Assembly: GCF_011927785.1 (NCBI RefSeq)
Contig: NZ_JAATJK010000001.1
Coordinates: forward strand, 3,505,001 to 3,569,000
Source: Micromonospora profundi
Lineage (GTDB): Bacteria; Actinomycetota; Actinomycetes; Mycobacteriales; Micromonosporaceae
Direction of reading: 5' to 3'
Length of the DNA: 64,000 nt
Position numbers and translations under genes: made by a program. Shown here in pieces: positions 19,915 through 59,544 of the stretch. The notes under the pieces were generated by a model. That model did not search any database and was not told where the DNA came from. It saw only the letters and a program-made list of their open reading frames with translations. Numbering within the stretch: position 1 is the first letter of the stretch; each line of letters begins with the position of its first letter.

Positions 19915-20816
19915 GCTCCGCCCGTCCCGTCTTCCGGCACCACCATCGTTCCGAACCCTTCCGAGGTGAAGACCTCCAGCAGAGTGGAGTGCGCCACCCG
20001 GCCGTCGACGACGTGCGCCGCGGGCACTCCCCCACGGACCGCTCGCAGACACGCCTCCATCTTCGGCACCATCCCCGACTCCAGGCTGGGCAGCAGCTTG
20101 GCCAGGTCGTCCGCGGCGATCTCCGAGATCAGGCTCGTGGTGTCCGGCCAGTCGGCGTACAGGCCCGCCACGTCGGTGAGCACGACGAGCTTGCGGGCCT
20201 GCAGCGCGATCGCCAGCGCGGCGGCGGCGGTGTCCGCGTTGAGGTTGTGCAGCACCCCGTCGACGTCCGGCGCCACAGTGGAGATCACCGGAATCCGGCC
20301 CGCCTCGATGAGGTCGGTCACCGCCGACACGTCGACCGACTCGACGTCCCCGACCTGACCCACGTCGACAGGCAGCCCATCCACGTACGCCGGGCGGCGC
20401 ACCGCCGTGAACAGCCGGGCGTCCTCACCGGAGAGGCCCACAGCGAACGGGCCATGCGAGTTGATCAACCCGACCAGCTCGCGGCCGACCTGCCCGACGA
20501 GCACCATTCGGACCACGTCCATCGCCTCGGCGGTGGTCACCCGCAGGCCACCGCGGAATTCGCTGGCGATGCCCAACCGGCCCAGCATGGCGGAGATCTG
20601 CGGACCACCGCCGTGCACCACCACAGGCTTGAGACCGGCGTAGCGCAGAAAAACCATGTCGGCGGCGAACGCCTGCTGCAACGCGGGGTCGGTCATGGCG
20701 TTGCCGCCGTACTTGATGACCACAGTGGAGCCGGAGAAGCGCGCCAGCCACGGCAACGCCTCGATGAGCGTCTCCGCCTTGACCTGGGCGCGGGTGAGAT
20801 CGGTGCTGAGACTCAC
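19911..20816 (-). CDS. argB: Acetylglutamate kinase
   Basis: A 301-residue kinase that phosphorylates N-acetylglutamate. Glycine-rich [10 protein letters not shown] (about 31-40) binds ATP and [17 protein letters not shown] binds the substrate. It has the long N-terminal helix ([20 protein letters not shown]) typical of arginine-inhibited hexameric enzymes, so feedback inhibition by arginine is likely. The GTG start at 20816 overlaps the stop codon of the repeat-derived frame at 20813-20935, which separates it from argJ. Confidence 0.96.
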
Positions 20817-20935
20817 CGGGCCAGCCTTTCGTTCGCGACTGCGGGACTCCGCTGCGCTGCGTTCCTCGCGCTCACCGAGCCTGCCTTTTCGTTCGCGACT
20901 GCGGGACTCCGCTGCGCTGCGTTCCTCGCGCTCAC
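20813..20935 (-). CDS. Repeat-derived 40-residue relay ORF between argJ and argB
   Basis: This open frame is two 60-bp units in tandem, encoding [17 protein letters not shown] twice with short linkers. Its GTG (20935) overlaps the argJ stop as GTGA, and its own TGA overlaps the argB GTG as GTGA. The other junctions in this operon overlap by 4 bp directly. I infer that the unit was inserted and duplicated in frame while preserving coupled translation. The peptide has no recognisable fold and may have no function of its own. Confidence 0.5.
20827..20935 (-). repeat. Two direct copies of a ~49-bp element, 60-bp period
   Basis: The identical stretch begins TTTCGTTCGCGACTGCGGGA and ends TCGCGCTCAC on the plus strand, at 20827-20875 and 20887-20935. 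On the minus strand each copy starts with GTGAGCGCGAGG. The start resembles the element at 36077-36105 (TGAGCG, then CGCAGCG, then AGTC). Confidence 0.85.
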
Positions 20936-22104
20936 GTGGAGTAGGCCGAATTCTCGTGTACGTACGCGTGGGACAGGTCGTTGGTCCAGATCGTCGCCTC
21001 CGCCGTACCGGCGTGCAGGTTGATCCGGATGGTCACGTCCCGGCCGGTCAGGTCGACCTTCGACCGGTCCTCGGCGGCAGCGCCGCCCCGACACACCCAC
21101 ACCCCGTTGACGGCCACGTCCACCTCGTCCGGGTCGAACGCGGCAGCGGTGGTGCCGACCGCGGCGAGGATCCGGCCCCAGTTCGGGTCGTTGCCGAACA
21201 GCGCGGTCTTGACCAGGTTGTTGCGCGCCACCGACCGGCCCACCTCGACCGCGTCGTCCTCGTCGGCCGCGCCGACAACGTCGATGGCGATCTGCTTGGT
21301 GGCGCCCTCGGCGTCGGCGACCAGTTGTTGGGCCAGGTCGTGACAGGCCGCGGTGACCGCGGCGGCCAACTCGGCCGGTGTCGGCTCGATGCCACTGGCG
21401 CCGCTGGACAGCAGCAGCACCGTGTCGTTCGTCGACATGCAGCCATCGGAGTCGACCCTGTCGAAGCTGACCCGGGTGGCAGCGCGCAGCGCCTCGTCCA
21501 GCACGGCAGGCCCCGCCACCGCATCGGTGGTCAGCACGCACAACATGGTGGCCATGCCCGGCGCGAGCATCCCCGCGCCCTTCGCCATCCCGCCGACCGT
21601 CCAGCCGCTGCCCTGGGCCACTGTCGTCTTCGCCCGCGTGTCCGTGGTCATGATCGCCTCGGCGGCGGCCACTCCGCCGTCACGGGACAGCTCACGGATC
21701 GCCGATCGGACGCCCGGCAGCAGCTTCGGCATCGGCAGCCGCTCACCGATCAGGCCGGTCGAGCAGACCGCCACCTCACCGGCCCCGAGAATCAACCGCG
21801 GGCTGACCGAGGTCAACGCGGCGGCGGTGTGCTCGGCGGTGGCATGCGTGTCCTGGAAGCCGGCCGGGCCGGTGCAGGCGTTGGCCCCACCGGAGTTGAG
21901 CACCACAGCGCGGACCACACCGCCCTGCACGACCTGCTGGGTCCAGAGCACCGGCGCGGCCTTCACCCGGTTGGTGGTGAAGACGCCCGCGACACCGGCG
22001 TCCGGGCCGTCGTTGACCACCAGCGCGACGTCCGCACCGCCGCTGGCCTTCAGACCGGCGGCCACCCCGGCCGCCCGGAACCCACGAGGGGTGGTGACAC
22101 TCAT
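20932..22104 (-). CDS. argJ: Glutamate N-acetyltransferase / amino-acid acetyltransferase
   Basis: A 390-residue bifunctional ornithine acetyltransferase that recycles the acetyl group between acetylornithine and glutamate. The precursor cleaves itself before Thr186 in [14 protein letters not shown], and this Thr becomes the nucleophile of the beta chain. The oxyanion-hole Thr-Gly occurs in [12 protein letters not shown] (about 110). The start at 22104 overlaps the argC stop (ATGA). The stop TGA doubles as the GTGA start of the following repeat-derived frame. Confidence 0.96.
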
Positions 22105-23102
22105 GGTGCAACTCCCCAGATCGACAGGCCCGTCGTCTCCGGCAGGCCGAGCATCAGGTTGGCGTTCTGCACGGCCTGGCCGGCGGCGCCCTTGCCCAGG
22201 TTGTCCAGGGCGCTGAGCACGATCAGCCGGCCGGAGTCGGCGTCCACTGTGGCTTGCAGGTGGCAGGAGTTCGACCCCAGCGTGGCGCCGGTGTGCGGCC
22301 ACCTGCCCTCCGGGAGCACGTGCACGAACGGCGCGTCGGCGTATGCCTGCGCCAGCACCTGCTGCGGGTCGACACCGCGCGCCGGCACGGCGGTGACAGT
22401 GGCCAGGATGCCGCGCGGCATCGGCGCCAGAACGGGAGTGAACGACAAGCTCGTCGCCCCGGTGGCCTGCTTGATCTCCGGCACGTGCTGGTGGGTGCCC
22501 ACCCGGTACGGCGACAGGTCACCCAGCACCTCGCTGGCCAGCAGGTGCGGCTTCGCCGCCCGGCCCGCCCCGGACGTGCCGGAGGCGGCGACGACCACCA
22601 CGTCCGCCGGGTTGGCCGCGCCGTCGGCGATCAGCGGCGCGAGCGCCAAGGTGATCGCGGCGGCGTAGCAGCCGGTGTTGGCGACCCGGGTGGAGGAGGC
22701 GATCAGCTCCCGCTGGCCGGGCAGCTCGGGCAGGCCGTAGGTCCACTGGCCGGCGTGGGTGCCGCCGTAGTACTGCGCCCAGGCGTACGGGTCGGCGAGC
22801 CGGTGGTCGGCGCCCAGGTCGACGACGCGCACCTCCGGCGGGAGCTGGGCCGCGAGGGTCGCCGACTCGCCGTGCGGCAGGGCCAGGAAGACCAGGTCCG
22901 CGTCGGCCAGGATCGCCGGGTCGGTCGCGCCGAACACCAGGTCGAGCCCGATGAGCTGCGGGTGCGCCACGTCGACGCGGTGCCCGGCCTGGCTGTGGGC
23001 GGTGGCGGCGACAAGGTCGAACTCCGGATGCCCGGCGATCAGGCGCAGCAGCTCACCTCCGGCGTAACCGCTCGCCCCGGCGACCGCGACTCGAATCCCC
23101 AT
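22101..23102 (-). CDS. argC: N-acetyl-gamma-glutamyl-phosphate reductase
   Basis: A 333-residue NADPH-dependent reductase and first gene of the arg operon. The dinucleotide loop is VAVAGASGYAGGELLRL (about 5-21). The catalytic Cys145 lies in VANTGCYAAAITLAL, and the C-terminal His region is GRWPHTGATLGSNSCHLQ. The ATG at 23102 has GGAGG five bases upstream; an ATG eight codons earlier would sit on this site and is rejected. Confidence 0.96.
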   Translation of the reverse strand: MGIRVAVAGASGYAGGELLRLIAGHPEFDLVAATAHSQAGHRVDVAHPQLIGLDLVFGATDPAILADADLVFLALPHGESATLAAQLPPEVRVVDLGADHRLADPYAWAQYYGGTHAGQWTYGLPELPGQRELIASSTRVANTGCYAAAITLALAPLIADGAANPADVVVVAASGTSGAGRAAKPHLLASEVLGDLSPYRVGTHQHVPEIKQATGATSLSFTPVLAPMPRGILATVTAVPARGVDPQQVLAQAYADAPFVHVLPEGRWPHTGATLGSNSCHLQATVDADSGRLIVLSALDNLGKGAAGQAVQNANLMLGLPETTGLSIWGVAP

Positions 23103-23112
23103 ACCCACCTCC

Positions 23113-23124
23113 GCATGACTATGC
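23113..23124. promoter_or_regulatory. Possible second ARG-type dyad near the argC start
   Basis: GCAT-GACT-ATGC, a small dyad with the TGCAT half-site flavour of ARG boxes. Its centre is about 52 bases (five helical turns) from the main box at 23160-23180, which would allow looping or cooperative binding of ArgR hexamers. Confidence 0.35.
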
Positions 23125-23159
23125 AACGAAGGCTAGCAGCGGTGCAGGTCACCTGCAAC

Positions 23160-23188
23160 TTAATACAACGGTATGCATGGTGATGTAA
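23160..23188 (-). promoter_or_regulatory. argC promoter with overlapping ARG box
   Basis: On the minus strand TTACAT (23188-23183), a 17-base spacer and TATTAA (23165-23160) form the promoter. The box CCATGCATACCGTTGTATTA (23180-23161) fills the spacer and -10. It closely resembles the Streptomyces ARG boxes as I remember them (CCATGCATGCCCATTGCATA). ArgR binding here would block the whole argCJBDFRGH operon. Confidence 0.75.
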
Positions 23189-23198
23189 GAACGGCCCC

Positions 23199-23294
23199 AA
23201 CCCCCGCGATCTTGCAGTTACTGCCCCCGCATAGCGGACAACAGGTGCACATCAACGACACAAACTGCAAGATCGCGGAGGTGAGGTGGGGGTT
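23199..23294. repeat. Long inverted repeat between pheT and argC
   Basis: A perfect 16-bp arm (CCGCGATCTTGCAGTT, 23204-23219, paired with 23263-23278) encloses 43 bases. Outer arms AACCCCC and GGGGGTT reach 23199 and 23294 and overlap the pheT stop codon. It lies just after pheT and may end that transcript, but it looks more like a dispersed repeat element than a simple terminator. Confidence 0.6.
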
Positions 23295-25872
23295 ACGCTC
23301 CGCGGAGGGTTGCTCCTAGGCGTTCTGTTGCTACTGCTACCGCCGCGTCGCGGGCTGCTACCGCTTCCTCGACAGTCAGCGTCCGGTCCGGTGCGCGGAA
23401 CGTGAGCTTGTACGCAAGCGACCGGCGACCCTCGCCGAGCTGCGCGCCGGAGTACACGTCGAAGAGCCGCACGTCCTCCAGCAGCTCCCCCGCGCCGGCC
23501 TCCAGCGCCCGGCGCACCTGCTCCGCCGGCACCGACTCGTCCACCACAAGGGCCACGTCGATCAGCGCTGGCGGGAAGCCGGACACCGCCGGGGCGGGCG
23601 TCACCGGGGCCACTGGCAACGCGTCGAGGCTCAACTCCATGGCGCAGATACGCCGGGGCAGCTCCAACGCCGCCACCACTGTCGGGTGCAGCTCACCGGC
23701 GTGCCCGACGACCACGCCGTCGACCCGCAGCTCGGCGCAGCGGCCGGGGTGCCACGGGGCGTGTTCGGCGGCACGCACCTCGACCCACTCGTCGGGAATA
23801 CCGGCGGCGGCCAGCGTGTCCCGGGCCGCCTCGATGGCGTCCGCCCAGCCGGCCGGCCGGCCCGGCCCCCACCATCCGGCCGGGTCCACCTCACCGGCGA
23901 GCACCACTGCCGCGTGCACGGGCTGCGCCGGCACCACAGCGTCGGCGGCGGCGAACTCGGCGTCGGTGGGACGCCGGTCCACACCCATCTCCGGCGGGCT
24001 GCCGGCGTCCCGGCGCGGGTGGAAGACCGCACCGATCTCGTAGAGCGCCAGGTCGCGGTGACCCCGACCGATGTTGCGCTTGAGGATGCCGAGCAGCGGG
24101 CCGAGCAGCGTGGTGCGCAGCAGCGGCTCCTCCTCCGACAGCGGGTTGGCCAGCCGCACCGCAGGTCGGCGCGGGTCGTCGGCCGGCAGGCCGAGCAGGT
24201 CCGCCAGCTGCGGCGACACGAACGGGTGCGCGAGCACCTCGACGTACCCCCGCGCAGCAAGCGACAGGGCGACCGCCCGGCGCCGACGCTGGCGCGGGGT
24301 CAGGCCGCGCCCGGGCGGCGCGGTGGGCAGCACCGACGGCACCTTGTCGTACCCGTCGAGGCGGACGACCTCCTCGACCAGGTCGGCCGGGTCGGTGAGA
24401 TCGGGCCGCCACGACGGCGGGGTGACGCTGAGCGCCACGCCGGCACCGCTGGCCGTGCCGACCGCTCCCGGGTCCTCGGCCAACCGGTCCGCGCCCTGCG
24501 CGACTGTGCAACCGACCCGCTCCAGGAGGGCGACCACCCGCGCCGGCGGGTACTCGACGCCGATCCGCCGGGTGGGCAGATCCGCCGGCAGGCTGATCGG
24601 GGTACGCGGACGGACGTGGTCGATGTCCAGGATCTCCGCGCTCGGTGTGCCGCCGCCGTGCTCGGTGAGCAGGCGTACGGCCCGCTCCAGCGCGACGAGC
24701 GCCACGGCTGGGTCGACGCCCCGCTCCCAGCGCTTGGCGGCCTCGCTGAACAGCTTGTGCCGGCGGGCCGTCCGCCCGACCATCGCCGGGTCCCAGTGCG
24801 CCGCCTCGAAGAGCACGTTTGTGGTGCCGGCGACGACCTCGCTGGTCTCCCCGCCCATCACCGCCGCGAGGGAGATCGGCGTGCCGGCGCCCTCGCCCGC
24901 CACGGCGCTGGGCAGCCCGGCGTCGCAGATCACCATGTCGTCGGCGGCGAGCACCCGGTCGACGCCGTCGAGGGTGGTCAGCTTCTCCCCCGGCACGGCG
25001 CGGCGGACCACGAGCGGCCCGGCGATCCGGTCGGCGTCGAAGGCGTGCATCGGCTGGCCCAGCTCCAACATCACGTAGTTGGTGATGTCGACAGGCAGGG
25101 AGATGCTGCGGATGCCTGCGGTGACGAGCCGCTGCTGCATCCACGACGGGGTGGGCGCGGTCGGGTCGACGCCGCGGACCAGGCGGGCGGTGAACCGGTC
25201 GCAGCCGACCGGGTCACGCACCTCCACCGGGTACGCCGGCGTCTCGGTGCCACGCGGCGCCGGCACCAGGGCCGGATCGCGCAGTGGCACGTCGAAGGCG
25301 TGCGACAGCTCCCGAGCCAGGCCGCGCAAGCTCAGCGCGTACCCCCGGTCCGGGGTGATCTCCAGGTCGAACACCACGTCGTCGAGGCCGACCACCGGCC
25401 GCGCGTCGTCGCCCGGCTTGGCGGCCACGTCCGGCGGCAGCACGATGATGCCGGAGTGGTCGTCGCCCAGGCCCAGCTCCTTCGCCGAGCAGATCATGCC
25501 CGCCGAGTTGTGCCCGTACGTCTTGCGCGCGCCGATGGCGAACCCGCCAGGCAGCACACCGCCGGGCAGGATCACCACCACCCGGTCGCCGACGGCGAAG
25601 TTGCGCGCCCCGCAGACGATCTCCTGCGGCTCACCGGTGCCGTTGGCGTGACCGACGTCGACGCGGCAGAACCGGATCGGCTTCTTGAAGCCGGTGAGCT
25701 CCTCGATCTCGCGGACCTCACCGACGACGAGCTGACCGGTGACCGACTCGCGCAGGTCCACGACGGACTCGACCTCGATGCCGAGGTCGACAAGGGCCTG
25801 CTCCAGGTCGCCGGTCGGCAGGTCGGCGGGCAGGTCGACGTACTCCCGCAGCCAGCTGACAGAAACTCGCAT
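23293..25872 (-). CDS. pheT: Phenylalanine-tRNA ligase, beta subunit
   Basis: An 859-residue subunit of the alpha2-beta2 synthetase. It has the N-terminal tRNA-binding (EMAP-like) domain with KKPIRFCRVDVG and CGARNFAVGDRVVV (about 40-155), then B3/4 editing and B5 domains (HPTRRIGVEYPPARVVALLERVGC region). The core catalytic-like domain includes NPLSEEEPLLRTTLLGPLL, and a C-terminal ferredoxin-fold anticodon-binding domain (PPALIDVALVVDESVPAEQV to the end) completes it. The ATG at 25872 lies 41 bases after the pheS stop. Confidence 0.97.
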   Translation of the reverse strand: MRVSVSWLREYVDLPADLPTGDLEQALVDLGIEVESVVDLRESVTGQLVVGEVREIEELTGFKKPIRFCRVDVGHANGTGEPQEIVCGARNFAVGDRVVVILPGGVLPGGFAIGARKTYGHNSAGMICSAKELGLGDDHSGIIVLPPDVAAKPGDDARPVVGLDDVVFDLEITPDRGYALSLRGLARELSHAFDVPLRDPALVPAPRGTETPAYPVEVRDPVGCDRFTARLVRGVDPTAPTPSWMQQRLVTAGIRSISLPVDITNYVMLELGQPMHAFDADRIAGPLVVRRAVPGEKLTTLDGVDRVLAADDMVICDAGLPSAVAGEGAGTPISLAAVMGGETSEVVAGTTNVLFEAAHWDPAMVGRTARRHKLFSEAAKRWERGVDPAVALVALERAVRLLTEHGGGTPSAEILDIDHVRPRTPISLPADLPTRRIGVEYPPARVVALLERVGCTVAQGADRLAEDPGAVGTASGAGVALSVTPPSWRPDLTDPADLVEEVVRLDGYDKVPSVLPTAPPGRGLTPRQRRRRAVALSLAARGYVEVLAHPFVSPQLADLLGLPADDPRRPAVRLANPLSEEEPLLRTTLLGPLLGILKRNIGRGHRDLALYEIGAVFHPRRDAGSPPEMGVDRRPTDAEFAAADAVVPAQPVHAAVVLAGEVDPAGWWGPGRPAGWADAIEAARDTLAAAGIPDEWVEVRAAEHAPWHPGRCAELRVDGVVVGHAGELHPTVVAALELPRRICAMELSLDALPVAPVTPAPAVSGFPPALIDVALVVDESVPAEQVRRALEAGAGELLEDVRLFDVYSGAQLGEGRRSLAYKLTFRAPDRTLTVEEAVAARDAAVAVATERLGATLRGA

Positions 25873-25913
25873 GACTTCAGACCACCGTTCCCGTGTCTCG
25901 TACCCGCATCGCC

Positions 25914-26981
25914 CTACGCTCCGGTCCCGAACGCCCGGCTGAACCGCACGTCGCCCTCGAAGAGGTGGCGGATGTCGCTGACCCCGTGCCGGATCATCAG
26001 GGTCCGGTCGATGCCCATGCCGAAGGCGAACCCGGAGTAGACCTCCGGGTCGACGCCGCAGGCGCGCAGCACCCGGGGGTTGACCATGCCGCAGCCGCCC
26101 CACTCGACCCACTGCGGACCGTCGCGGTGCTCGGGGAACCACACGTCGAACTCCGCCGACGGCTCGGTGAACGGGAAGTAGTGCGGCCGCCACCGGGTCT
26201 TGGCCTCCGGGCCGAACATGGCGCGGGCGAAGTGGTCGAGCGTGCCCCGCAGGTGTGCCATCGTGATGCCCTTGTCGACAACCAGGCCCTCGGCCTGGTG
26301 GAACACCGGGCTGTGGGTGGCGTCGATCTCGTCGGTGCGGTAGACGCGGCCAGGCACGATCACGTAGATCGGCGGCTTACGGCTGAGCATCGTGCGGGTC
26401 TGCACCGTCGACGTGTGCGTTCGTAGAACAAGGCCCGAGCCCTGCGGTGCGATGTGGAAGGTGTCCATCAGCCCTCGCGCCGGGTGGTCGGCGGGGATGT
26501 TCAGCGCGTCGAAGTTGACCCACTCCAGGTCGACCTCGGGACCCTCGGCCACCTCGTAGCCCATCCCGACGAAGAGATCACTTATCGACTCCATGAGGGT
26601 GCTCAGCGGATGCCGGGCACCACGCGGACGCCGGGCGTACGGCAGTGTGACGTCCACCCGTTCCTCGACCAGCACCCGCTCGGCCTGCTCGCGCTCCACC
26701 ACCTCGGCGCGCTCGGCGTAGGCGGCCTCGATGGCGCGGCGGGCCTCGTTGACCCGCTTACCGGCGTCGGACTTCGCAGCCGGCGGCAGCGCGCCGATCT
26801 CCCGGCGCGCGAGGGACACCGGGGACCGGTCACCGAGGTGCGCGGGGCGCAGCGCGGTCAACGCGTCCGGGTCGGCGGCGGCCTCGAACGCCTTCGTGGC
26901 GTCGGCGACGGCCTCGGCCAGGGCGGTCGGGTCGAGCAGGGCGACCTGCTTCGGGTCGTACGGATCGTTGCGGTAGCTCAT
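25914..26981 (-). CDS. pheS: Phenylalanine-tRNA ligase, alpha subunit
   Basis: A 355-residue catalytic subunit. An N-terminal coiled coil (about 15-100) precedes class II motif 1. Motif 2 includes [23 protein letters not shown] with the Phe-binding HSPxFHQ sequence, and motif 3 is [19 protein letters not shown] near the end. It attaches Phe to tRNA-Phe together with PheT. The ATG at 26981 agrees with the family N-terminus; a longer frame to 27020 has no support. A -10-like TAGACT lies at 27041-27036. Confidence 0.96.
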
Positions 26982-27035
26982 GGCGTACGGGCACTCCCTC
27001 ACGGCGGCGCCAGCCCTCACCGGGGCGGCTAGGCG

Positions 27036-27998: not shown

Positions 27999-28022
27999 GG
28001 TGTGGGCTCCTCCGGCACGATT

Positions 28023-34235: not shown

Positions 34236-34742
34236 TCAGCCGCCGAAGCCGACCCGCTGGACGTTGCCCGTGGCCACGCTCCGCACGGCCAGCGCCGCGT
34301 CGAGCGCCGCCACCGTCGCCGACCAGCCCTTGTCCTCCGCCGAGCCGGGCAGCCCCGCCCGGTCCCGGGCCTGCTCGATGGTCTCCACAGTCAACACACC
34401 GTGCGCCACCGGCTTGCCCTCGTCCAACGCCACACGGGTCAGACCGTCGGTGACCGAACGGCACACGTAGTCGAAGTGGGCGGTGGCGCCGCGCACCACC
34501 ACGCCGAGCGCGACCACCACGTCACAGCGGCGCGCCAGGGCCTGCGCGACCACCGGCAGCTCGACGGAGCCGGCGACGCGGGCCACCACGGACCGCGCTC
34601 CGCACGCCTCCGCCGCCGCCACCGCGCGCTCCAGCATGTGGTCGGTCAGCTCGCCGTGCCACCGGGCGGCCACCACCCCGACGGTCAGCCCCGCGGCGTC
34701 CACCGCGTCGACTCCCGGCTCACCGAAACCCGCCATCGTCAT
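34236..34742 (-). CDS. ribH: 6,7-dimethyl-8-ribityllumazine synthase
   Basis: A 168-residue lumazine synthase. It catalyses the condensation of the pyrimidine intermediate with 3,4-dihydroxy-2-butanone phosphate. It has [20 protein letters not shown] (about 21-40), the [13 protein letters not shown] substrate loop, and the [17 protein letters not shown] block containing His. The ATG overlaps the ribBA stop (ATGA). It is the last gene of the rib operon. Confidence 0.96.
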
Positions 34743-36025
34743 GCTCCGATCTCGTCATCGACGACCGGACGCCCCAACGGCGCCTCGGACATCTCGTCCA
34801 ACTCGTCAAGCAGGTGACCCATCCGGTCCCGCTTGGTGCGCAGGTAGCGCAGGTTCTCCGGATGCGCGCCGACAGGCAACCCTTCCCGCCCGGTGATGGT
34901 CAGCCCGTAGCCCTCCAGACCGGCCCGCTTGGCGGGGTTGTTCGTCAACAGTCGCATCGACCGCACGCCCAGGTCGTAGAGGATCTGCGCGCCGGTGCCG
35001 TAGTCGCGGGCGTCGGCAGGCAGACCCAGGTCGAGGTTCGCGTCCACAGTGTCCCGGCCCTGGTCCTGCAACTGGTACGCCTGCAACTTGTGCAGCAGCC
35101 CGATGCCGCGCCCCTCGTGCCCGCGCACGTAGAGCACCACGCCCCGGCCCTCACGCCCGACCCGGGCCAGCGCGGCGTCCAACTGCGGGCCGCAGTCGCA
35201 GCGCAGTGAGCCGAACACGTCCCCGGTCAGGCACTCGGAGTGGACCCGGACCAGCACGTCCTGGCCGTCGCCGAGGTCACCCAGCACCATCGCCACGTGC
35301 TCGGCCGAGTCGTGCTCGGCGCGGTAGCCGAGCGCCCGGAAAACCCCGTGCCGCGTGGGCATCCGGGCGTCCGCGACCAGCTCGACCTGCTTTTCGGTAC
35401 GTCGCCGGTAGGCGACCAGGTCGGCGATGGTGACGAGGGTGAGCCCGTGCTCGGCGGAGAACTTCTCCAGGTCAGGCAGGCGCATCATGGTGCCGTCGTC
35501 GTTGACCAGCTCGCAGAGCACGCCCGCGGGACGCAGCCCGGCCAGCCGGGTCAGGTCCACCGCGGCCTCGGTGTGCCCCGGCCGGCGCAGCACCCCACCC
35601 TCGCGGGCGCGCAGCGGCACCACGTGCCCCGGTCGGGCCAGATCGGTCGGGTCGGTGCTCGCGCTTGCCAGCAGCCGGATGGTGTGCGCGCGGTCGGCCG
35701 CCGAGATGCCGGTGCTGACACCCTCCCGGGCGTCAACGGTCACCGTGTACGCGGTGCCCCGCCGGTCCTGGTTGGTGTGGTGCATCGGCGGCAGGTCGAG
35801 CCTGTCGCACTCGCTCTCCGTCAACGGCACGCAGACGTACCCGGAGGTGTACCGCACCATGAACGCCAGTAGTTCCTGCGTGGCCAGCTCGGCCGCGAAG
35901 ATCAGGTCGCCCTCGTTCTCCCGGTCGGCGTCGTCGACCACGACGACCGGCCGCCCGGCGGCGATATCGGCGACCGCCTGCTCGATGCTGCCAAAGCTGC
36001 TGACTCGCTCGCTGCGCTCGCTCAT
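34739..36025 (-). CDS. ribBA: Bifunctional DHBP synthase / GTP cyclohydrolase II
   Basis: A 428-residue fusion. The N-terminal DHBP synthase (about 12-210) has [16 protein letters not shown] and [11 protein letters not shown]. The C-terminal GTP cyclohydrolase II (about 215-410) has the zinc site [17 protein letters not shown] and [10 protein letters not shown]. Together they start both branches of riboflavin synthesis. The first nine residues MSERSERVS come from a repeat also found at 36077-36105, so the enzyme's N-terminus appears to be borrowed from the repeat. The conserved domain begins near [17 protein letters not shown]. Confidence 0.95.
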
Positions 36026-36105
36026 GCCGACACTCCGCTTCGCTCCGTGCCACCATGAGGCACCCCCGCGCTGAACCTGCTGACTCGCTCGCTGCGCTCG
36101 CTCAT
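35997..36105 (-). repeat. Two identical 29-bp copies carrying a start codon
   Basis: CTGCTGACTCGCTCGCTGCG and the following CTCGCTCAT occur at 35997-36025 and 36077-36105 on the plus strand. On the minus strand each copy begins ATGAGCGAGCGCAGCGAGCG. One copy supplies the ribBA start, the other the start of the small frame at 36022-36105. Confidence 0.9.
36022..36105 (-). CDS. Repeat-derived 27-residue relay ORF between ribM and ribBA
   Basis: The frame encodes [19 protein letters not shown] followed by TERSGVSA. Its ATG (36105) overlaps the ribM stop as ATGA and its stop overlaps the ribBA ATG as ATGA. It begins with the same repeat as ribBA itself. No fold or homologous function is recognisable. 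I infer that it keeps ribosomes moving from ribM into ribBA after a repeat duplication; a functional peptide is possible but unsupported. Confidence 0.5.
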
Positions 36106-36791
36106 GCGACGGCCTCCGTGTAGGTGGGCGGACGTACGGATCTCGGCCGGGTCACGCGCGACGTGCGCCACCAGGCGACGAAACCCCAGGCGCAGAAGGC
36201 GCCGTAGACCAGGTACATGGCAGCCGACGGGTAGAAACCACCGCGCAGCAGCAGCGGCACGCCCACCGCGTCGACAGCGATCCAGACCAGCCAGAACTCC
36301 ACCCAGCCGCGAGCCATGCCGTAGGTGGCCAGCAGGCTGCCGGTGAGGATCCAGGCGTCCGGCAGCGGGCCCCACGAGCCCAGGGCGGCGAGCACCGGAT
36401 ACGCGAGCGCGGTGCCCACCACTGCGGCCAGCAGCATCGCCAGGCGTTCCCGACCGGTGGCCCAGCGCGGCACCACAGCGGCCTGCCCGGCGTCGGTGCG
36501 GCGGTTGCGCCGCCAGCGCCACCACCCGTAGACGCTCACCGCGAAGAAGAACACCTGCCGGCCGGCCTGCCCGTACAGGTCGTGGGCCTGCGGGGTGGCG
36601 AACACCCCGCCGAGGAAGACGGTGAGCAGCAGCGCGTTGCCGATCATGCCAACCGGCCAGGCCCAGACCACCCGGCGCAGCCCGAGCAGCGCGGACAGGA
36701 GCCCGAAGCCGTTGCCGACGATCTCCCGGACCAGCACCGGCGAACCGGCCACCTGCACCTGGGCATCGAGCAGCCAACCGAGCGGGCCCAT
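36102..36791 (-). CDS. ribM: PnuC-family transporter, probable riboflavin transporter
   Basis: A 229-residue membrane protein with about seven helices and PnuC-type motifs ([71 protein letters not shown]). PnuC proteins import nicotinamide riboside. In actinobacterial rib operons the related RibM/PnuX imports riboflavin, and the location between ribE and ribBA under an FMN riboswitch favours that role. The start overlaps the ribE stop as TGATG. Confidence 0.82.
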
Positions 36792-38495: not shown

Positions 38496-38650
38496 CGCCC
38501 TGCCCTCTCGCTCGCCAGTGCGCGCGGCGGGTCGGGAGGCGGCATGGGCCGCGGGCAGGCGGCGGCGGATTCCGGGAACGGCACAGCCGCCCCCGGGAGG
38601 TCGGCACGGCACGCTGAAGCCAGCGGCCGGCTCGGACCCGTCCGTCCCGC

Positions 38651-38818
38651 GCGCTGTCTCCCATCCGGACTGTCTGGGGGCAGACGAGCCGCCCCCAACC
38701 GTCGGCCCCGGAGTTTCACCAGGTCCACCGGGCGGCAGAGCCGTCCGGGTCGCGGGCTGACCACGGTCTGGACCGTGGATCACCGCCGGTTCGGAATTTC
38801 ACCGAGTCCCGCCAGCGC
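38651..38818 (-). promoter_or_regulatory. FMN riboswitch (RFN element) of the rib operon
   Basis: On the minus strand the conserved core is GGACTCGGTGAAATTCCG, then AACCGGCGGTGATCC, AGCCCGCGA, GGTGAAACTCC, GCCGACGG and AGTCCGGATGGGAGA. The closing stem P1 pairs GCGCTG (38818-38813) with CAGCGC (38656-38651). FMN binding should turn down ribD-ribE-ribM-ribBA-ribH. The stretch 38496-38897 holds no gene. A weak -10 (TAAGAC, 38841-38836) may start the leader. Confidence 0.95.
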
Positions 38819-38897
38819 GTGGTGGGTACCCCGAAGTCTTACACGCCGACGGGGTTCCGTCTTCCTTCAGGCGAGCTACTTCACAGCCTCGTCATGC

Positions 38898-52997: not shown

Positions 52998-53056
52998 GCA
53001 GACGCGCGCGACCGGCGACCCCTCTGCGGGTCGCCGGTCGCTACGCCTGGTGGCGG

Positions 53057-54250
53057 TCAGGCTCCCGCGGCCGACTTGAGGTCGGCGGCCCGGTCGGTGC
53101 TCTCCCAGGTCAGGTCCGGCAGCTCCCGGCCGAAGTGGCCGTACGCGGCGGTCTGCTGGTAGATCGGGCGGAGCAGGTTGAGGTCGCGGATGATCGCGGC
53201 CGGACGCAGGTCGAACACCTCGCCGACGGCCTTCTCGATCGAGGCAACCGACACGGTCTCGGTGCCGAACGTCTCGATGAACAGGCTCACCGGGTGCGCC
53301 TTGCCGATGGCGTAGGCGACCTGCGCCTCGCACCGCTCGGCCAGGCCGGCGGCGACCACGTTCTTGGCCACCCACCGCATCGCGTACGCCGCGGAGCGGT
53401 CCACCTTGGACGGGTCCTTGCCGGAGAAGGCACCGCCGCCGTGCCGGGCGTACCCGCCGTAGGTGTCGACGATGATCTTGCGACCGGTGAGGCCGGCGTC
53501 ACCCATCGGACCGCCGATCTCGAACCGGCCGGTCGGGTTGACCAGCAGCCGGTAGCCGTCGGTGTCCAGACCCAGGCTCTCCAACTCCGGGGCGATGACG
53601 TGGTCGCGCACGTCGGGGGTGAGCAGCGACTCCAGCGAGATGTCAGCGGCATGCTGGCTGGACACGACGACGGTGTTCAGCCGGACCGGGCGCAGCCCTT
53701 CGTACTCGATCGTCACCTGGGTCTTGCCGTCCGGGCGCAGGTACGGGATCGTGCCGTCCTTGCGCACCGCGGCGAGGCGACGGGCCAGCCGGTGGGCCAG
53801 GGCGATGGGCAGCGGCATCAGCTCGGGGGTCTCCGAGCAGGCGAAGCCGAACATCATGCCCTGGTCGCCGGCGCCCTGCGCGTCCAGCGCGCTCTCCGAC
53901 GCACCGGTACGCAGCTCGAAAGCGTTGTCCACGCCCTGCGCGATGTCCTCCGACTGCGCCCCGATGGAGACGCTGACGCCACAGGACGCGCCGTCGAAGC
54001 CCTTCTTCGACGAGTCGTAGCCGATGTCGAGGATGGTCCGGCGCACAATCGTCGGGATGTCGGCGTACGCCTTGGTGGTGACCTCACCGGCGATGTGCAC
54101 CTGGCCGGTGGTGATCATGGTTTCCACCGCAACCCGGCTGTGGGGATCCTCGGTGAGCAGCGCATCGAGGATGCCGTCGCTGATCTGGTCGGCGATCTTG
54201 TCCGGGTGGCCTTCCGTGACCGATTCGGACGTGAAGAGGCGGCGTGTCAC
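53057..54250 (-). CDS. metK: S-adenosylmethionine synthetase
   Basis: A 397-residue enzyme making SAM from Met and ATP. It starts [22 protein letters not shown] with the catalytic His, then [11 protein letters not shown] and [10 protein letters not shown] (about 110-130), and the P-loop-like [16 protein letters not shown] near residue 275. The start is GTG with AGGAG upstream. It sits between coaBC and priA but has its own promoter (54284-54312). Confidence 0.97.
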
Positions 54251-54283
54251 GGCACTCCTAAGCGTGTGAAGTCATTCTGCGGC

Positions 54284-54312
54284 AGTCTAATCACCACTGC
54301 GGCCAGTGTCGG
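54284..54312 (-). promoter_or_regulatory. Candidate metK promoter
   Basis: CCGACA (54312-54307), a 17-base spacer and TAGACT (54289-54284), about 35-60 bases before the GTG. No SAM riboswitch is recognisable. Confidence 0.55.
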
Positions 54313-54339
54313 GACTCGGAGCTTGCTGTGTTCCACCCG

Positions 54340-55548
54340 TCAGGAGCGGTCGGTCAGCCGCGCCACGACGAGATCCCACACGGTGTCGGCCACAGCCTCC
54401 TTGACCTGCTCCGGCAGGCGGCTCGCCGAGCCGTCCGCTCCGATGACCGTCACCGTGTTGGTGTCGGCACCGAAGACCTTGTCGGGCCCGACCTCGTTGA
54501 CCACGATGAGGTCGGCCCGCTTGCGGGCGAGTTTCGCCCGCGCATTGGCCTCCGCGTCGCCGGTCTCGGCGGCGAACACCACAAGCACCTGATCCGGTCG
54601 CTTGCGCTGGCCGAGCTCCGCCGCGATGTCCGGGTTCGTGACGAGCTCGATGGTGGGCGCGACACCGTCGTCCGACTTCTTGATTTTGCCAGGCGCGTAC
54701 GTCGCCGGCCGGAAATCGGCAGGAGCCGCCGCCATCACGACAGCATCGGCCTCGACGGCGGCCTTCAGGGTGGCCTCCCGCAGCTCCGCGGTGGAGCCCA
54801 CCCGGACCAGGTCGACACCGGCCGGGTCGGCGAGGGAGACGTTCGCCGCGATCAGCGTGACCCGGGCACCCCGGGCCACCGCCGCACGGGCGAACGCGTA
54901 GCCCTGCTTGCCCGAGGAGCGGTTACCCAGGAAGCGGACCGGGTCCAGAGGTTCCCGGGTGCCGCCCGCTGTCACCACCACGCGGCGACCGGTCAGGTCG
55001 GCAGGGGTGGTGCCGCCACGGGCCAGGATCCGGCGGGCGACCGCGAAGATCTCGGCTGGATCGGGCAGCCGGCCCTTGCCTGTGTCGACGCCGGTGAGCC
55101 GCCCGACGGCCGGCTCGATGACCCGGACGCCCCGGGAGCGCAGCGTCGCGACGTTGGCGACAGTGGCCGGGTGCTCCCACATCTCGGTGTGCATGGCCGG
55201 GGCCAGCAGCACCGGGCAGCGCGCGGTCAGCAGCGTGTTCGTCAACAGGTCGTCGGCGAGCCCGTGGGCGGCCTTCGCGAGCAGGTCCGCTGTTGTCGGA
55301 GCGACCACCACCAGGTCGGCCTGCTGGCCGAGCCGGACGTGCGGCACCTCGTGGACGTCGGACCACACGTCGTCGGCTACCGGCTGGCCGGACAGCGCCG
55401 ACCAGGTCGGCGCTCCGACGAACCGGAGCGCCGACGCGGTAGGTACGACGCGGACCCGATGACCTGATTCGGTGAAGAGCCGCAGGAGCTCACACGCCTT
55501 GTAGGCGGCGATGCCACCGCCGACCCCGAGGACGATCCCGGCGGACAT
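54340..55548 (-). CDS. coaBC: Bifunctional phosphopantothenoylcysteine decarboxylase / phosphopantothenate-cysteine ligase
   Basis: A 402-residue fusion of coenzyme A synthesis. The N-terminal CoaC flavoprotein (about 1-185) has GVGGGIAAYKACELLR, catalytic-His region DVHEVPHVRLGQ and PAMHTEMW, where His replaces the Asn of the common PxMNxxMW motif, as in other actinobacteria. The C-terminal CoaB (about 190-400) has VTAGGTREPLDPVRFLGNRSSGKQG. It is 14 bases after rpoZ. Confidence 0.95.
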   Translation of the reverse strand: MSAGIVLGVGGGIAAYKACELLRLFTESGHRVRVVPTASALRFVGAPTWSALSGQPVADDVWSDVHEVPHVRLGQQADLVVVAPTTADLLAKAAHGLADDLLTNTLLTARCPVLLAPAMHTEMWEHPATVANVATLRSRGVRVIEPAVGRLTGVDTGKGRLPDPAEIFAVARRILARGGTTPADLTGRRVVVTAGGTREPLDPVRFLGNRSSGKQGYAFARAAVARGARVTLIAANVSLADPAGVDLVRVGSTAELREATLKAAVEADAVVMAAAPADFRPATYAPGKIKKSDDGVAPTIELVTNPDIAAELGQRKRPDQVLVVFAAETGDAEANARAKLARKRADLIVVNEVGPDKVFGADTNTVTVIGADGSASRLPEQVKEAVADTVWDLVVARLTDRS

Positions 55549-55562
55549 CGACGTGCCGACGC

Positions 55563-55826
55563 TTACGGCTGGTCGGTCGGCTCGGCGGTGAGCAGGCCCG
55601 CGTTGATCTCACGCATGGCGATGGAGAGGGGCTTCTCCTGCGGGGTGGTCTCAACGAGCGGGCCGACGTACTCCAGGAGGCCCTCACCGAGCTGGCTGTA
55701 GTAGGCGTTTACCTGACGCGCCCGCTTGGCGGCGAAGATCACAAGCGCGTACTTCGACGTCGTCTTCTCGAGGAGCTCGTCGATCGGCGGGTTGGTGATG
55801 CCTTCGGGGTTGGCGATGGATCCCAC
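55563..55826 (-). CDS. rpoZ: RNA polymerase omega subunit
   Basis: An 87-residue subunit that binds beta-prime. The core is [32 protein letters not shown] (about 12-43) followed by [20 protein letters not shown]. The start is GTG with AGAGG upstream. The order gmk-rpoZ-coaBC is conserved in actinobacteria. Confidence 0.97.
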
Positions 55827-55890
55827 GAATTAACCTCTGCGTCTTTCGAGCCGCGCGGACGCGGTGCTGAGTCTCAACGGCGGCCGGCCG

Positions 55891-56424
55891 TCAGCCACGC
55901 ACGCGCGACCAGGCCGGATCCGGATAAGAAGAACCGAGTAAGCCTACCAGCTCGTCAGCCACCCGCCCGGTGTGGTCGTGCGTCAGGGCGTGGCCGAAGG
56001 CCGCCGCCACGGCGGCGTCGGGCCGGTGCCCCGGCGGGCTCAGCAGCACCAGCCGGGCGTCGGGCAGTCTCGCCCGGACCAGCTGGGCGCCGGCGACGTC
56101 GAGCGAAAGTAGGACCGCCTGCCCGGCGTCGAGCCGGGCGCGCAGCGGGGGGTACGGGGTGCCCCTGTGGTACGGACCGATCCGGGACCATTCGAGCAGG
56201 TCACCGGCGGCCGCCCGGCGCTCGAACTCCGCGGCGGAGAGAAAGACCCGGTCTTCCCCATCGATCTCGGACTCCCGGCGCGGCCTGGTAGTTGCCGGCA
56301 CCGGGATCCACACGGACGGAGAACGCGCCCGGACAAGCTCGACGACACTCTCCCTGCCGGAACCCGAAGGTCCAGCCAGGACAGTGAGCCGAGCCGCCGG
56401 GCGCGCCTCGTCATCCGTGCTCAC
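55891..56424 (-). CDS. Guanylate kinase homologue with lost catalytic residues
   Basis: A 177-residue protein at the place of gmk between mihF and rpoZ. The fold is recognisable (LTVLAGPSGSG, VPATTRPRRESEIDGEDRVF, GDLLEWSRIG, LDVAGAQLVRARLPDARLVLLSPPG). However, the P-loop reads GPSGSGRES with Arg24 for the essential Lys, and the GMP-binding DYxF is EDRVF. YGT is HRGT, and the Arg-rich lid is missing. It is also shorter than usual. It is probably inactive as a GMP kinase, so a second gmk should exist elsewhere in the genome. I leave the symbol empty. Confidence 0.8.
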   Translation of the reverse strand: MSTDDEARPAARLTVLAGPSGSGRESVVELVRARSPSVWIPVPATTRPRRESEIDGEDRVFLSAAEFERRAAAGDLLEWSRIGPYHRGTPYPPLRARLDAGQAVLLSLDVAGAQLVRARLPDARLVLLSPPGHRPDAAVAAAFGHALTHDHTGRVADELVGLLGSSYPDPAWSRVRG

Positions 56425-56449
56425 TGCTTGTTTCTACACGCTGCCAGGT

Positions 56450-56767
56450 TCAGTTGGCGGCGAACTCTCCAAGCAGTGCCTTGCGCTGCTGCTCGCCGAG
56501 GCCGCGCAGGCGACGGCTGTCAGCGATCTTGAGCTTCTCCATGATCTGGGTAGCCCGGATCTTGCCAATGCCCGGCATCGCCTGGAGGACGGCCGAAACC
56601 TTGAGCTTGCCGACGACGTCGTCGCCCTCGGCCCGTTCGAGGACGGCACCGAGGGTGGTCTTGCCCTGCTTGAGCTGTTCCTTCAGCTCGGCACGGGCCT
56701 TGCGGATCTCCGCAGCCTTCTCGAGCGCGGCAGCGCGCTGTTCGGGGGTCAGTGACGGGAGCGGCAC
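56450..56767 (-). CDS. mihF: Integration host factor, actinobacterial type
   Basis: A 105-residue nucleoid protein, MPLPSLTPEQRAAALEKAAEIRKARAEL, with the C-terminal helix-two-turn-helix (VSAVLQAMPGIGKIRATQIMEKLKIADSRRLRGLGEQQR). It binds and bends DNA and is essential in mycobacteria. The GTG start follows GAGGAG. It is 25 bases from the gmk-like gene and has its own promoter. Confidence 0.96.
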   Translation of the reverse strand: MPLPSLTPEQRAAALEKAAEIRKARAELKEQLKQGKTTLGAVLERAEGDDVVGKLKVSAVLQAMPGIGKIRATQIMEKLKIADSRRLRGLGEQQRKALLGEFAAN

Positions 56768-56870
56768 CAGTTCTCCTCAGGTCCCTATCGCGGCGGGCGG
56801 GGCGCACCGCCGCATCTGTGAAACGTGGTGTCGCTGTGAACCAAGGGGTCCGTGGTTCCCAGCGCGGGGA

Positions 56871-56899
56871 AAACTAGCGGTCAACGGAACTTTCGGCAA
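56871..56899 (-). promoter_or_regulatory. Candidate mihF promoter
   Basis: TTGCCG (56899-56894), a 17-base spacer and TAGTTT (56876-56871) on the minus strand, giving a leader of about 95 bases. Confidence 0.5.
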
Positions 56900-56945
56900 C
56901 GTGGGCACGCGATGATCATCGGAGAGTGACCGAGCCGTCAGTCAG

Positions 56946-57782
56946 TCACCGGGCAGCCAGAACGGCCCGGCACTCGGCCAGCACCCGGTCCGCGGCGGCC
57001 CGCAGGGCGGTGCCGTCCGGACCTGCCGAGAGCACCTCCCGGGAGTACGACGGGAGCACTGCGGGAAGGCTGGAACCGAACACTGTGCGTAGGTCCGCGG
57101 CCCCTGCACCCTGTGCTCCGAGCCCCGGCGCGAGCAGCGGACCACCCACGCCGGAGAGGTCATGACCGGTGTCTCCGATGGTCGCGCCGACCACCAGACC
57201 GAAGCTCCCGAGGGGGTCTGCACCCCTGTTGAGCTGGGAAATCTCGTCAATCACGGTCTGCGCGACGGTGCGCCCGTCGGCCGTACGGGCACGCTGGACG
57301 GCGGCGCCCTCGGGGTTCGAGGTGAGGGCGAGCACGAAGACACCGCCGCCGTGCTGGGCAGCGAGTTCGAACATCGGGGCCAGCGAACCTACTCCCAGGT
57401 AGGGGCTCGCGGTGACGGCGTCGACATACAAAGGGCTGGATGGATCGAGGTACGCGGAGGCGTACGCGCTGACCGTTGAGCCGATGTCGCCACGCTTGAC
57501 GTCCAGCAAAACGAGCGAACCGGCTTCCCGTAACTGTCGGATAGTTGACTCAAGGATCGCCACACCGCGGGACCCGAACCGCTCGAAAAAGGCCGACTGA
57601 GGCTTGACCACCGCAACCCGGTCACCGAGGGCGTCAACGACGGTCCGGGTGAACCGGTCAAGACCGTCAACGTCGTCGGCGAGACCCCAACGGGCCAGCA
57701 GACCGGGATGCGGATCGATGCCCACACAGAGCGGCCCCCGCTCGGTGATCGCCCGGTGCAGCCGGGTGCCGAAGGTCTCCAT
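56946..57782 (-). CDS. pyrF: Orotidine-5'-phosphate decarboxylase (type 2)
   Basis: A 278-residue TIM barrel, last step of UMP synthesis. The N-terminus METFGTRLHRAITERGPLCVGIDPHPGLL and the catalytic LLDVKRGDIGST (Lys/Asp about 92-100) identify the actinobacterial type 2 family. The ATG at 57782 lies about ten bases behind AGGAG. It follows bioA by 74 bases and is apparently part of the carAB-pyrD unit. Confidence 0.96.
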   Translation of the reverse strand: METFGTRLHRAITERGPLCVGIDPHPGLLARWGLADDVDGLDRFTRTVVDALGDRVAVVKPQSAFFERFGSRGVAILESTIRQLREAGSLVLLDVKRGDIGSTVSAYASAYLDPSSPLYVDAVTASPYLGVGSLAPMFELAAQHGGGVFVLALTSNPEGAAVQRARTADGRTVAQTVIDEISQLNRGADPLGSFGLVVGATIGDTGHDLSGVGGPLLAPGLGAQGAGAADLRTVFGSSLPAVLPSYSREVLSAGPDGTALRAAADRVLAECRAVLAAR

Positions 57783-57856
57783 GGGAGTGTTCTCCTCTCC
57801 TCGTCCGGGCGGCAGCCCCGCCCGGGTCACACCGTCGACCCGGTGAACGGGCCCTC

Positions 57857-59131
57857 TCAGCCGGCCGCCACCGCCGCCGCCACCCCGGCCGCGATGCGGG
57901 CCAGGTCGGCGTCGTCGGTGACGTACGGCGGCATCGTGTAGATCAGGTCGCGGAAGGGTCGTAGCCACACGCCTCGGTCGATGGCCGCCGCGGTGGCCGC
58001 CCCGAGGTCCACCTCGTGATCGAGCTGGACCACCCCGATCGCGCCGAGCACCCGTACGTCGGTCACGCCGGGCGTGCCGCGCAGGGGCTCCAGACCGGCG
58101 CGCAGGCCCGCGCCGACCCTGGCGACCTGTCCCGCCCAGTCCCCCGCCCGCAGCAGCCCGAGGGAGGCGTTGGCGACGGCACAGGCCAGCGGGTTGCCCA
58201 TGAAGGTGGGCCCGTGCGCCAGGACACCCGCGGCGGAGATGCCCCGGGCGATCTCCGGGGTGCACAGGGTCGCGGCCAACGTCAGGTAGCCGCCGGTGAG
58301 CGCCTTGCCCACGCACATCACGTCCGGGGACACTCCGGCGTGCTCGGCGGCGAACATCGTGCCCGTACGGCCGAACCCGGTGGCGATCTCGTCGAAGATC
58401 AGCAGCGCGCCGTGGGCCTGGGTCACCTCGCGCAGCACCCGCAGGTACCCGGGATGGTGGAAGCGCATCCCGCCGGCGCCCTGCACCACCGGCTCCACGA
58501 TCACCGCGGCCAGTTCGTCGGCGTGCCGTTCGACGGCGTCGACCAACGCGGCCACGTACGCCTCGTCCGGCGGATCGGCGAACCCGCCCGGCGGCACCGG
58601 GGCGAAGACCTGCCGGGGCAGCACGTCGCCCCAGAGGTGATGCATCCCACCTTCGGGGTCGCAGACGCTCATCGGGTGGAAGGTGTCACCGTGGTAGCCG
58701 CCTCGCCACGTCGCGAGCCGGCGCCGCTGCGGCCTGCCGATCGCCCGCTGGTACTGCAGGCACATCTTCATCGCCACTTCGACGCTCACCGAGCCGGAGT
58801 CGGCCAGGAACACGTGCTCCAGACCTTCCGGGGCCAGCTCGACAAGGGTCCGGGCGAGCTGGACCGCCGGCTCGTGGGTGAGGCCGCCGAACATCACGTG
58901 GCTCATCCGGCCGAGCTGGTCGGTCACCGCCGCGTCCAGCACCGGGTGCCGGTAGCCGTGGATCGCCGCCCACCAGGACGACATCCCGTCCACCAGTTCC
59001 CGCCCGTCGGCCAGACGCAACCGCACTCCCTCGGCGCTGCTCACCACGTACGGCTGGTTAGCCGATGGCAGCGCCGTGTACGGGTGCCAGACGTGCGCCC
59101 GGTCGGCGGCCAGGATCTCCTCGGGCGTCAC
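57857..59131 (-). CDS. bioA: Adenosylmethionine-8-amino-7-oxononanoate aminotransferase
   Basis: A 424-residue PLP enzyme of biotin synthesis that transfers the amino group of SAM to KAPA. It has VWHPYTAL (about 14-21), [49 protein letters not shown], the Asp of [14 protein letters not shown], and the Schiff-base Lys in [10 protein letters not shown]. The GTG at 59131 has AAGGAG five bases upstream; a GTG five codons earlier is rejected. It is an unexpected guest inside the pyrimidine operon. Confidence 0.93.
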
Positions 59132-59544
59132 GCGCACTCCTTCCACAGCTGGACGGGCCGGTCACCGCAGACGGGCCGCCACCACCGGCCGGCCCGGTCC
59201 GACGCGACCCGGTCCGTCGACGCGGCCCGGTCCGTCGACGCGACCCGGTCCATCGACGCGGCGCGGAGGCCGGGCACCGCCCGGACGGCAGGCACGGCGC
59301 GGCCGCGCCGGACCACTTGTGCGCGTCCTTTGCTCTGCTTCAACCCACGCAACGGCCAGCGTCCGGTATCCGGACAACGGGTGGTGCGTCGGGTGAAGCA
59401 GAGCAAAGGACGCGAGGACAGGTCGGCGGCCGGAGCGGCACGACGCACGATCACGCCACCCGACACGCAAACCGGAGCGGCACGACCCACGACCACGCCA
59501 CCCGACACGGAGGCCGCAGTCGGCTCGACCGCCCCTGCGGTCAC
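59128..59544 (-). CDS. Repeat-derived 138-residue relay ORF between pyrD and bioA
   Basis: The frame starts at a GTG that overlaps the pyrD stop (GTGA) and ends with a TGA overlapping the bioA GTG (GTGA). It contains a 42-bp duplication ([13 protein letters not shown] / [13 protein letters not shown]), a 93-bp inverted repeat, and an 18-bp tandem repeat giving [18 protein letters not shown]. There is no recognisable fold. The 409-base gap has no other gene. The most economical reading is a repeat-built bridge that keeps translational coupling from pyrD to bioA; a real protein cannot be excluded. Confidence 0.45.
59191..59266 (-). repeat. 18-bp tandem repeat, about four units
   Basis: ACCCGGTCCGTCGACGCG and close variants at 59207, 59225 and 59243, with a shortened unit before (59191) and a partial unit after. 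The period equals six codons, and the encoded hexapeptide is [T/M]DR[V/A]AS. Confidence 0.85.
59322..59414. repeat. 93-bp inverted repeat with 21-bp perfect arms
   Basis: Arms at 59322-59342 and 59394-59414 (core GCGTCCTTTGCTCTGCTTCA) are perfect. Pairing continues imperfectly inwards for about ten more bases. The centre has its own hairpin GTCCGG-TAT-CCGGAC (59361-59375). It lies inside the relay frame and resembles dispersed REP-like elements of Micromonospora. Confidence 0.85.
59430..59510 (-). repeat. 42-bp direct duplication
   Basis: CCGGAGCGGCACGAC begins both copies (59430 and 59472), which also share CACGCCACCCGACACG. The period is 14 codons and keeps the minus-strand frame open. Confidence 0.85.

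Follow-up and report, generated by a model that had tools for sequence, protein, structure and literature searches.

We analysed a stretch of 64,000 nucleotides from Micromonospora profundi, positions 3505001–3569000 of a single-contig genome of 6,933,450 bp (contig NZ_JAATJK010000001.1) and referred to below as the window, in which two short repeats, A and B, carry a small open frame that overlaps both neighbouring genes by the four bases NTGA. Very probably A and B are two short-repeat families of Micromonospora, similar to the mycobacterial interspersed repetitive units (MIRUs), which spread by insertion into NTGA overlaps of stop and start codons and whose relay frames are tolerated there. 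The closest named relatives, as judged by argB, are M. chokoriensis and Micromonospora sp. H61 (96% identity each).

Repeats A and B at two junctions of the window

The three junctions considered here are all located on the minus strand. At junction 1 (argJ/argB) repeat A is present as a tandem pair of units, 60 and 59 bp long, at positions 20816–20935 (Tandem Repeats Finder period 60). The TGA of argJ lies within GTGA at 20935–20932, a 40-codon frame follows, and the terminal GTGA at 20816–20813 is the start of argB. Junction 2 (pnuC/ribAB, 36022–36105) contains a single 80-bp unit of repeat B at 36026–36105 with a 27-codon relay frame and ATGA at each end; the pnuC stop is part of the first ATGA, and ribAB starts in the second. 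A partial second B copy at 35997–36025 forms, as judged from the sequence and from relatives, an in-frame N-terminus of ribAB ([10 protein letters not shown]). Both arrays begin on the TGA of the 5′ gene and finish on the NTGA of the 3′ gene, and no Pfam match (E up to 0.01) was found for the relay peptides.

Placement of the repeats in the genome

Candidates for repeat A were collected by BLAST (22 matches) and by two pattern scans (47 and 55 matches, with 1 and 4 for the backward-pattern controls). The surroundings of all candidates were fetched, and only this fetched sequence was rescored with a profile (E up to 0.01). This resulted in 50 units in 35 arrays, a count that is incomplete for weak copies, as seen from a degenerate copy at 218925 (E 0.04) in one of the background stretches. 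The units are about 56–62 bp in size, with an own frame of 20 codons. In 25 of the 35 arrays the 5′ coding frame ends exactly on the TGA of the first NTGA, and two more show TGATG. The background consisted of 248 same-strand neighbour pairs (from the window and from 17 stretches of 20 kb), of which 37 have a −4 overlap; genes were called with a home-made caller, whose starts are approximate and whose codon model fits Micromonospora only. In relatives the 5′ stop was inside the NTGA of the element in 20 of 27 A arrays from the top-scoring loci. At position 464471 (locus L100) A-like sequence lies within a long open frame, the 5′ frame stopping 1302 bases further on, and this is possibly an intragenic copy that is read through in frame.

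When one mismatch is permitted, the 19-base core of repeat B is found twice in the genome, both times at junction 2, and the backward-read control also gave two. A profile built from sequence only retrieved ten copies (E < 0.002), nine of which have the TGA of the 5′ gene inside the NTGA of the element. In all nine the distance from the first to the last NTG is 2 mod 3 (counted by hand), and the tenth copy, at 3481080, is 1 mod 3 and lies away from any overlap. Four shortened copies have their NTGA shifted by loss of 9, 9, 21 and 27 bp, all multiples of three. When loci were picked by BLAST score, 15 of 22 arrays fitted the NTGA placement, or 16 of 22 once an offset of 9 bp was corrected; these arrays derive from 20 loci, 18 of them from relatives, and two of the 22 are own copies already counted. 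In the tandem arrays among them the unit spacing is invariably 80 bp.

Compared to the background, binomial P values for NTGA placement of the A and B sets ranged from 9e-14 to 3e-7. The enrichment at four-base overlaps that the original prediction had proposed is therefore seen for both repeats. That prediction also gave A and B a common start; the A array of the window matched the B profile with E 0.05, so that a shared start is only suggested by the sequences.

Empty sites and allele series in relatives

Loci of relatives were taken best first, from 30 of 41 genomes for each A or B junction of the window, 24 of 25 for a third A locus (6669339 in the own genome) and 30 of 31 for pyrD/bioA. 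At argJ/argB the overlap was bare in 20 of 30 relatives, with a start shift of no more than 6 bp, and the other 10 carried an in-frame fusion or an insert of one or two units; three units were present in M. rosaria (L020). Similarly, pnuC/ribAB showed a bare overlap in 22 of 30 relatives and a B insert or remnant in eight. At the third locus inserts of at least 20 bp were found in 13 of 24 and inserts of 0 to 15 bp in 11 of 24, only some of the short inserts being recognisable by eye as A (e.g., L295, L297). Across genomes the A copy number varies from zero to three units at argJ/argB and at the third locus. The empty sites at these three loci are plain NTGA overlaps (ATGA or GTGA), and the 5′ stop is within ATGA or GTGA in 84 of 84 allele rows.

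These alleles support, for A and B, the proposed insertion at ATGA and GTGA overlaps. The expectation that copies occasionally become the N-terminus of a gene was likewise borne out: element-derived N-termini were found in ribAB of the window, in argB of L165, in ribAB of L174 and in the gene following position 6625699.

Retention of the relay frame

For each array the reading frame was traced onwards from the first NTGA, with a new start at every NTGA, and the resulting frame chain was compared to nulls from shuffled inserts. In the own genome the chain reaches the 3′ gene in 24 of the 27 A arrays at overlaps (null 12.5) and in 28 of all 35 (null 16.3). The corresponding value for A in relatives was 23 of 27 arrays (null 6.2; 28 top-scoring loci, one without a match). 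Among occupied alleles of the three loci the chain reaches the gene in 12 of 13, 10 of 10 and, for pnuC/ribAB, 8 of 8; the respective nulls were 6.2, 5.4 and 3.2 with random frame and 7.4, 7.4 and 5.1 with the insert length kept. Pooled, 30 of 31 occupied alleles with inserts of 21 to 196 bp keep the chain, versus nulls of 14.8 to 19.9, and the sole miss (L292) ends in TGATG, where the junction is still tight. As predicted, open frames of A and B exceed the shuffled expectation in every set.

The spacing of the units is in agreement with this. Periods between A units in the own genome are 59 bp (10 cases) or 60 bp (5 cases) and never 1 mod 3. In 23 of 27 arrays the last A unit lies at a distance of 2 mod 3 from the gene start (56, 59, 62, 89 or 110 bp); two are 0 mod 3, one is 1 mod 3 and one is without an assigned class.

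A model for insertion and relay, and points against it

We propose that a copy enters an existing NTGA overlap of two co-directional genes, presumably by transposition, and leaves NTGA at each end. The frame of the element (20 codons in A, 27 in B) would then open on the stop of the 5′ gene and close on the start of the 3′ gene. A ribosome that ends the 5′ gene could start anew on the relay frame, translate it to its end and from there initiate on the 3′ gene. Since coupling would be maintained, the insertion would be tolerated, and such tolerance may be the cause of the positional bias. Units would multiply in tandem and later decay, with changes that break the frame being selected against, and some copies would turn into the N-terminus of a gene. 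The two terminal NTGA sequences may belong to the element itself or may have arisen as a short duplication.

Re-initiation on the 3′ gene would be aided by a Shine-Dalgarno-like tract that the elements carry ahead of the last NTGA. Its median pairing energy was −4.7 kcal/mol for A (22 arrays) and −6.1 kcal/mol for B (20 units), compared to −5.8 kcal/mol for gene starts (248) and −2.5 kcal/mol for random 16-mers (400). The energies refer to pairing with an assumed anti-Shine-Dalgarno core.

Several observations weigh against this model. Eight of the 35 own A arrays (394160, 464471, 1054066, 2226620, 3693039, 5665393, 6860678 and 6924891) are at neither NTGA nor TGATG, some of them being weak or partial matches. 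In relatives a period of 61 bp, which breaks a simple relay, accounts for 8 of 16 inter-unit cases (4 arrays); extra starts reach the gene in two of these arrays (L259, L270) and fail to do so in the other two (L264, L278). The alleles are kin and the loci were the best-scoring ones, so that the counts are no independent random trials. With the insert length kept, the nulls fall only a little below the observed counts, and wherever the unit length is fixed at 2 mod 3 the frame comes free. Finally, the Y1 transposase family (PF01797) was considered as the mover and rejected: it has no match in the own genome and is absent from 28 of 41 genus genomes, the own included, being found in the remaining 13.

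Insertion bias, structure or relay

The strongest competing explanation is one that we consider possible but doubtful: a mover that recognises NTGA or gene borders would explain the placement by itself, and the open frames would be a by-product of a fixed unit length, with no selection on them. It has the insertion step in common with the relay model, and the odds of the two overlap. Units of near-constant length (59–61 or 80 bp) would provide the frame mostly for free, and the peptide of B is not clearly conserved. Variation at the three codon positions was 45, 37 and 42 in B (20 units), compared to 24, 23 and 30 in A2 (23 units) and 1, 4 and 16 in A1 (13 units); the ratio of nonsynonymous to synonymous changes relative to expectation was 0.59, 0.40 and 0.05, respectively. 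As B varies about equally at all codon positions, its frame rather than its peptide seems to be kept. A1 varies mostly at third positions, and its ratio may hint at a constraint on the peptide, but the units derive from a single genome and in part from tandem arrays. On the other hand, NTGA must by simple arithmetic, although uncounted, be far more common inside genes, and of the 35 A arrays only 464471 and perhaps 394160 and 1054066 look intragenic. Furthermore, copies with insertions or deletions stay at 2 mod 3 or become in-frame fusions (L165, L174).

Much less probable is the view that the elements function through RNA or DNA structure, as binding sites or as internal promoters, with the relay frame being incidental. 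The senX3-regX3 MIRUs are reported to drive expression of the 3′ gene (PMC4213456). In favour of this view, the 3′ half of B is a palindrome (TCATG...CATGA) that takes in the terminal ATGA and encloses a GTGCC...GGCAC dyad. For repeat A no clear palindrome was found, and terminal inverted repeats were not seen by eye. Five single units folded about as their shuffles did (z −1.39 to +0.55), and compensatory changes were present in 0 of 21 predicted pairs of B and 3 of 10 of A. The only match of an Rfam scan of the window was a flavin mononucleotide (FMN) riboswitch outside the elements. RNA structure is thus a weak candidate for the chief constraint.

The pyrD/bioA junction and overlaps in general

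The original prediction had named three junctions of the same kind. The layout at argJ/argB and pnuC/ribAB was confirmed; the third, pyrD/bioA, has an open frame only and is weak evidence for a class of relay elements. Its 138-codon open frame (59128–59544, minus strand) spans repeats of other types, as seen from sequence and relatives. The spacer of 409 bp with 75% guanine plus cytosine is open throughout in 18% of shuffles, and two of the three reverse frames are also open. It contains tandem repeats and a 45-nt inverted repeat (59322–59414) with arms that are 82% complementary and 3 nt apart. Sequences resembling the latter occur on both strands, elsewhere in the own genome and in related genomes, which identifies it by sequence as a dispersed palindromic repeat of a separate kind.

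Of 25 loci compared in relatives, only 12 have a chain that extends to bioA, and four further loci had an unmatched flank; one row of this comparison (L223) was misplaced. A bare −4 overlap accounts for two of these 12 (L233, L236), and the remaining spacers measure 30 to 364 bp. Among occupied alleles, the own included, 11 of 20 reach bioA versus 5.4 to 6.9 expected. In view of the incomplete chains, the variable spacer and the different repeats, we rejected this junction as a third relay family.

The proposal of a general rule for gene overlaps does not hold either. A usable spacer together with an NTGA was available in 57 of the 248 background pairs, with 18 direct fusions excluded. Relay chains numbered 17, five of them being copies of A or B, and shuffled spacers would give 12.9. 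Relay frames other than those of A and B are thus about as frequent as chance predicts, and no rule covers overlaps generally. A loose repeat pattern was uninformative (13 matches versus 11.1 expected). Chance alone, by which stop codons are rare in GC-rich DNA and any insert resembles an open relay frame, may well account for junction 3 in view of these background numbers, but is a most improbable explanation for A and B, which begin exactly on the 5′ stop far above background and exceed shuffles in all sets.

Relation to known repeat systems

A 2025 review (PMC12548453) describes MIRUs as present in many mycobacteria, as apparently mobile and as inserted at start codons, so that the frame inside them is coupled to the gene at −4 nt. 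The original prediction, which knew of no described system of this type, was mistaken in this respect. Two further reports describe MIRUs as short tandem repeats of 46–101 bp at 41 loci in M. tuberculosis (PMC3914561), and the senX3-regX3 MIRUs as units of 77 and 53 bp limited to M. leprae and the tuberculosis complex (PMC4213456). Since layout and logic were already known, we file A and B as MIRU-like by layout, the relation being one of description only. Like MIRUs, A (about 56–62 bp) and B (80 bp) are short interspersed units, single or in tandem and polymorphic in number, and in most, not all, copies the inner frame overlaps both neighbours at NTGA. The MIRU units of 77 and 53 bp are 2 mod 3, as are A with 59 bp and B with 80 bp. 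The coupling sites of MIRUs are named DTGA; A and B also insert into (D)TGA coupling sites, with bare alleles of ATGA or GTGA. Unlike MIRUs, A and B have hosts of other genera, and their empty sites are directly visible. MIRUs were reportedly described as free of dyads by Supply et al. in 1997, whereas B has an inner palindrome and A no clear one. The B profile, applied to 54 of 80 argB loci, mycobacterial ones included, gave a best E of 0.07; such loci need not contain a MIRU.

REP (repetitive extragenic palindromic) elements, which are mobilised by RAYT/Y1 transposases, consist of a short palindrome adjoining a fixed tetranucleotide. The palindromic 3′ half of B next to a tetranucleotide resembles this, unlike the lack of the Y1 family in the own genome. 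The open frame of A and B can fuse to host genes, a feature shared with coding repeats similar to miniature inverted-repeat transposable elements (RPE of Rickettsia, NEMIS, ERIC, RU-2). These are small and non-autonomous, with a frame that can be fused to host genes; most of them have terminal inverted repeats, and the available part of the source does not describe a stop-start placement for them (PMC2229807).

Our literature search, outside of which most subscription journals fell, found no report of A- or B-type repeats for Micromonospora, Salinispora or other non-mycobacterial actinobacteria. New are two families outside the mycobacteria, allele series with empty sites, frames kept in decay, and B-like copies across families of the order.

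Distribution

Both distribution searches used stricter filters, with at most 26 or 30 candidates scored per genome, so that copy numbers are lower bounds. Repeat A was present in 23 of 23 genus genomes and in one of six from other genera of the family, and was marginal in two others (200 genomes in total). Repeat B was present in 14 of 15 genus genomes and in one of four from other genera of the family; outside the family it was found in 12 genomes (150 in total). Of 20 B copies fetched from outside the genus, one belongs to a sister genus and the other 19 to further families. All 20 have frames of 25–29 codons, and 19 end at ATGA or GTGA; an exact 5′ stop in nine and TGATG in one is a weak result, obtained with a codon model trained on another genus. 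A genome from another family of the order (G092, loci L311–L322) contains at least 27 B-like copies of visibly several types, which look like further subfamilies. Plasmids gave no match for A or B, and phages, which were searched for B and not for A, gave none for B.

Neighbouring genes and other features of the window

Junction 1 is flanked on the minus strand by argJ (20932–22104; Pfam ArgJ, E 2.9e-131; start from our gene caller) on the 5′ side and by argB (19911–20816; Pfam AA_kinase and argB relatives) on the 3′ side. The neighbours in junction 2, on the same strand, are a pnuC-like transporter gene (36102–36791; Pfam NMN_transporter, E 1.7e-48) and ribAB (34739–36025; Pfam DHBP_synthase and GTP_cyclohydro2). 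The FMN riboswitch (Rfam RF00050, 73.2 bits) is located at 38649–38820 on the minus strand, 5′ of the genes that include pnuC and ribAB, and the B element is therefore probably inside a riboswitch-controlled riboflavin operon. Apart from this, segments of 90–123 bp are repeated at 8371–10001 in adjoining open frames (8035–10019), which presumably encode tandem universal-stress-type proteins.

Meaning for actinobacterial operons

Our data suggest that the MIRU layout is not confined to mycobacteria. A tentative extension, to which we give limited credence, is that MIRU, A and B belong, as branches, to a single actinobacterial relay class with dedicated machinery that reads NTGA at gene borders and that still colonises operon overlaps across the order. 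It draws support from the B-profile matches in the 12 genomes of other families, from the frames and NTGA ends of the 20 copies fetched outside the genus, and from the short inserts at the third locus that keep their chains, some of which can still be recognised as decayed A. If it is true, the frame and not the sequence would be under selection, so that old copies would leave in-frame scars and new N-termini, and some of the small frames and unusual N-termini of such operons would be fossils of insertions.

Single junctions provide a natural series of alleles, from the empty site through one to three units to short remnants and in-frame fusions, by which termination-reinitiation in operons and its cost become testable. 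For annotation, N-terminal extensions in the genus such as MSERSER or the one found in ribAB of the window can be inserted repeats and not domains.

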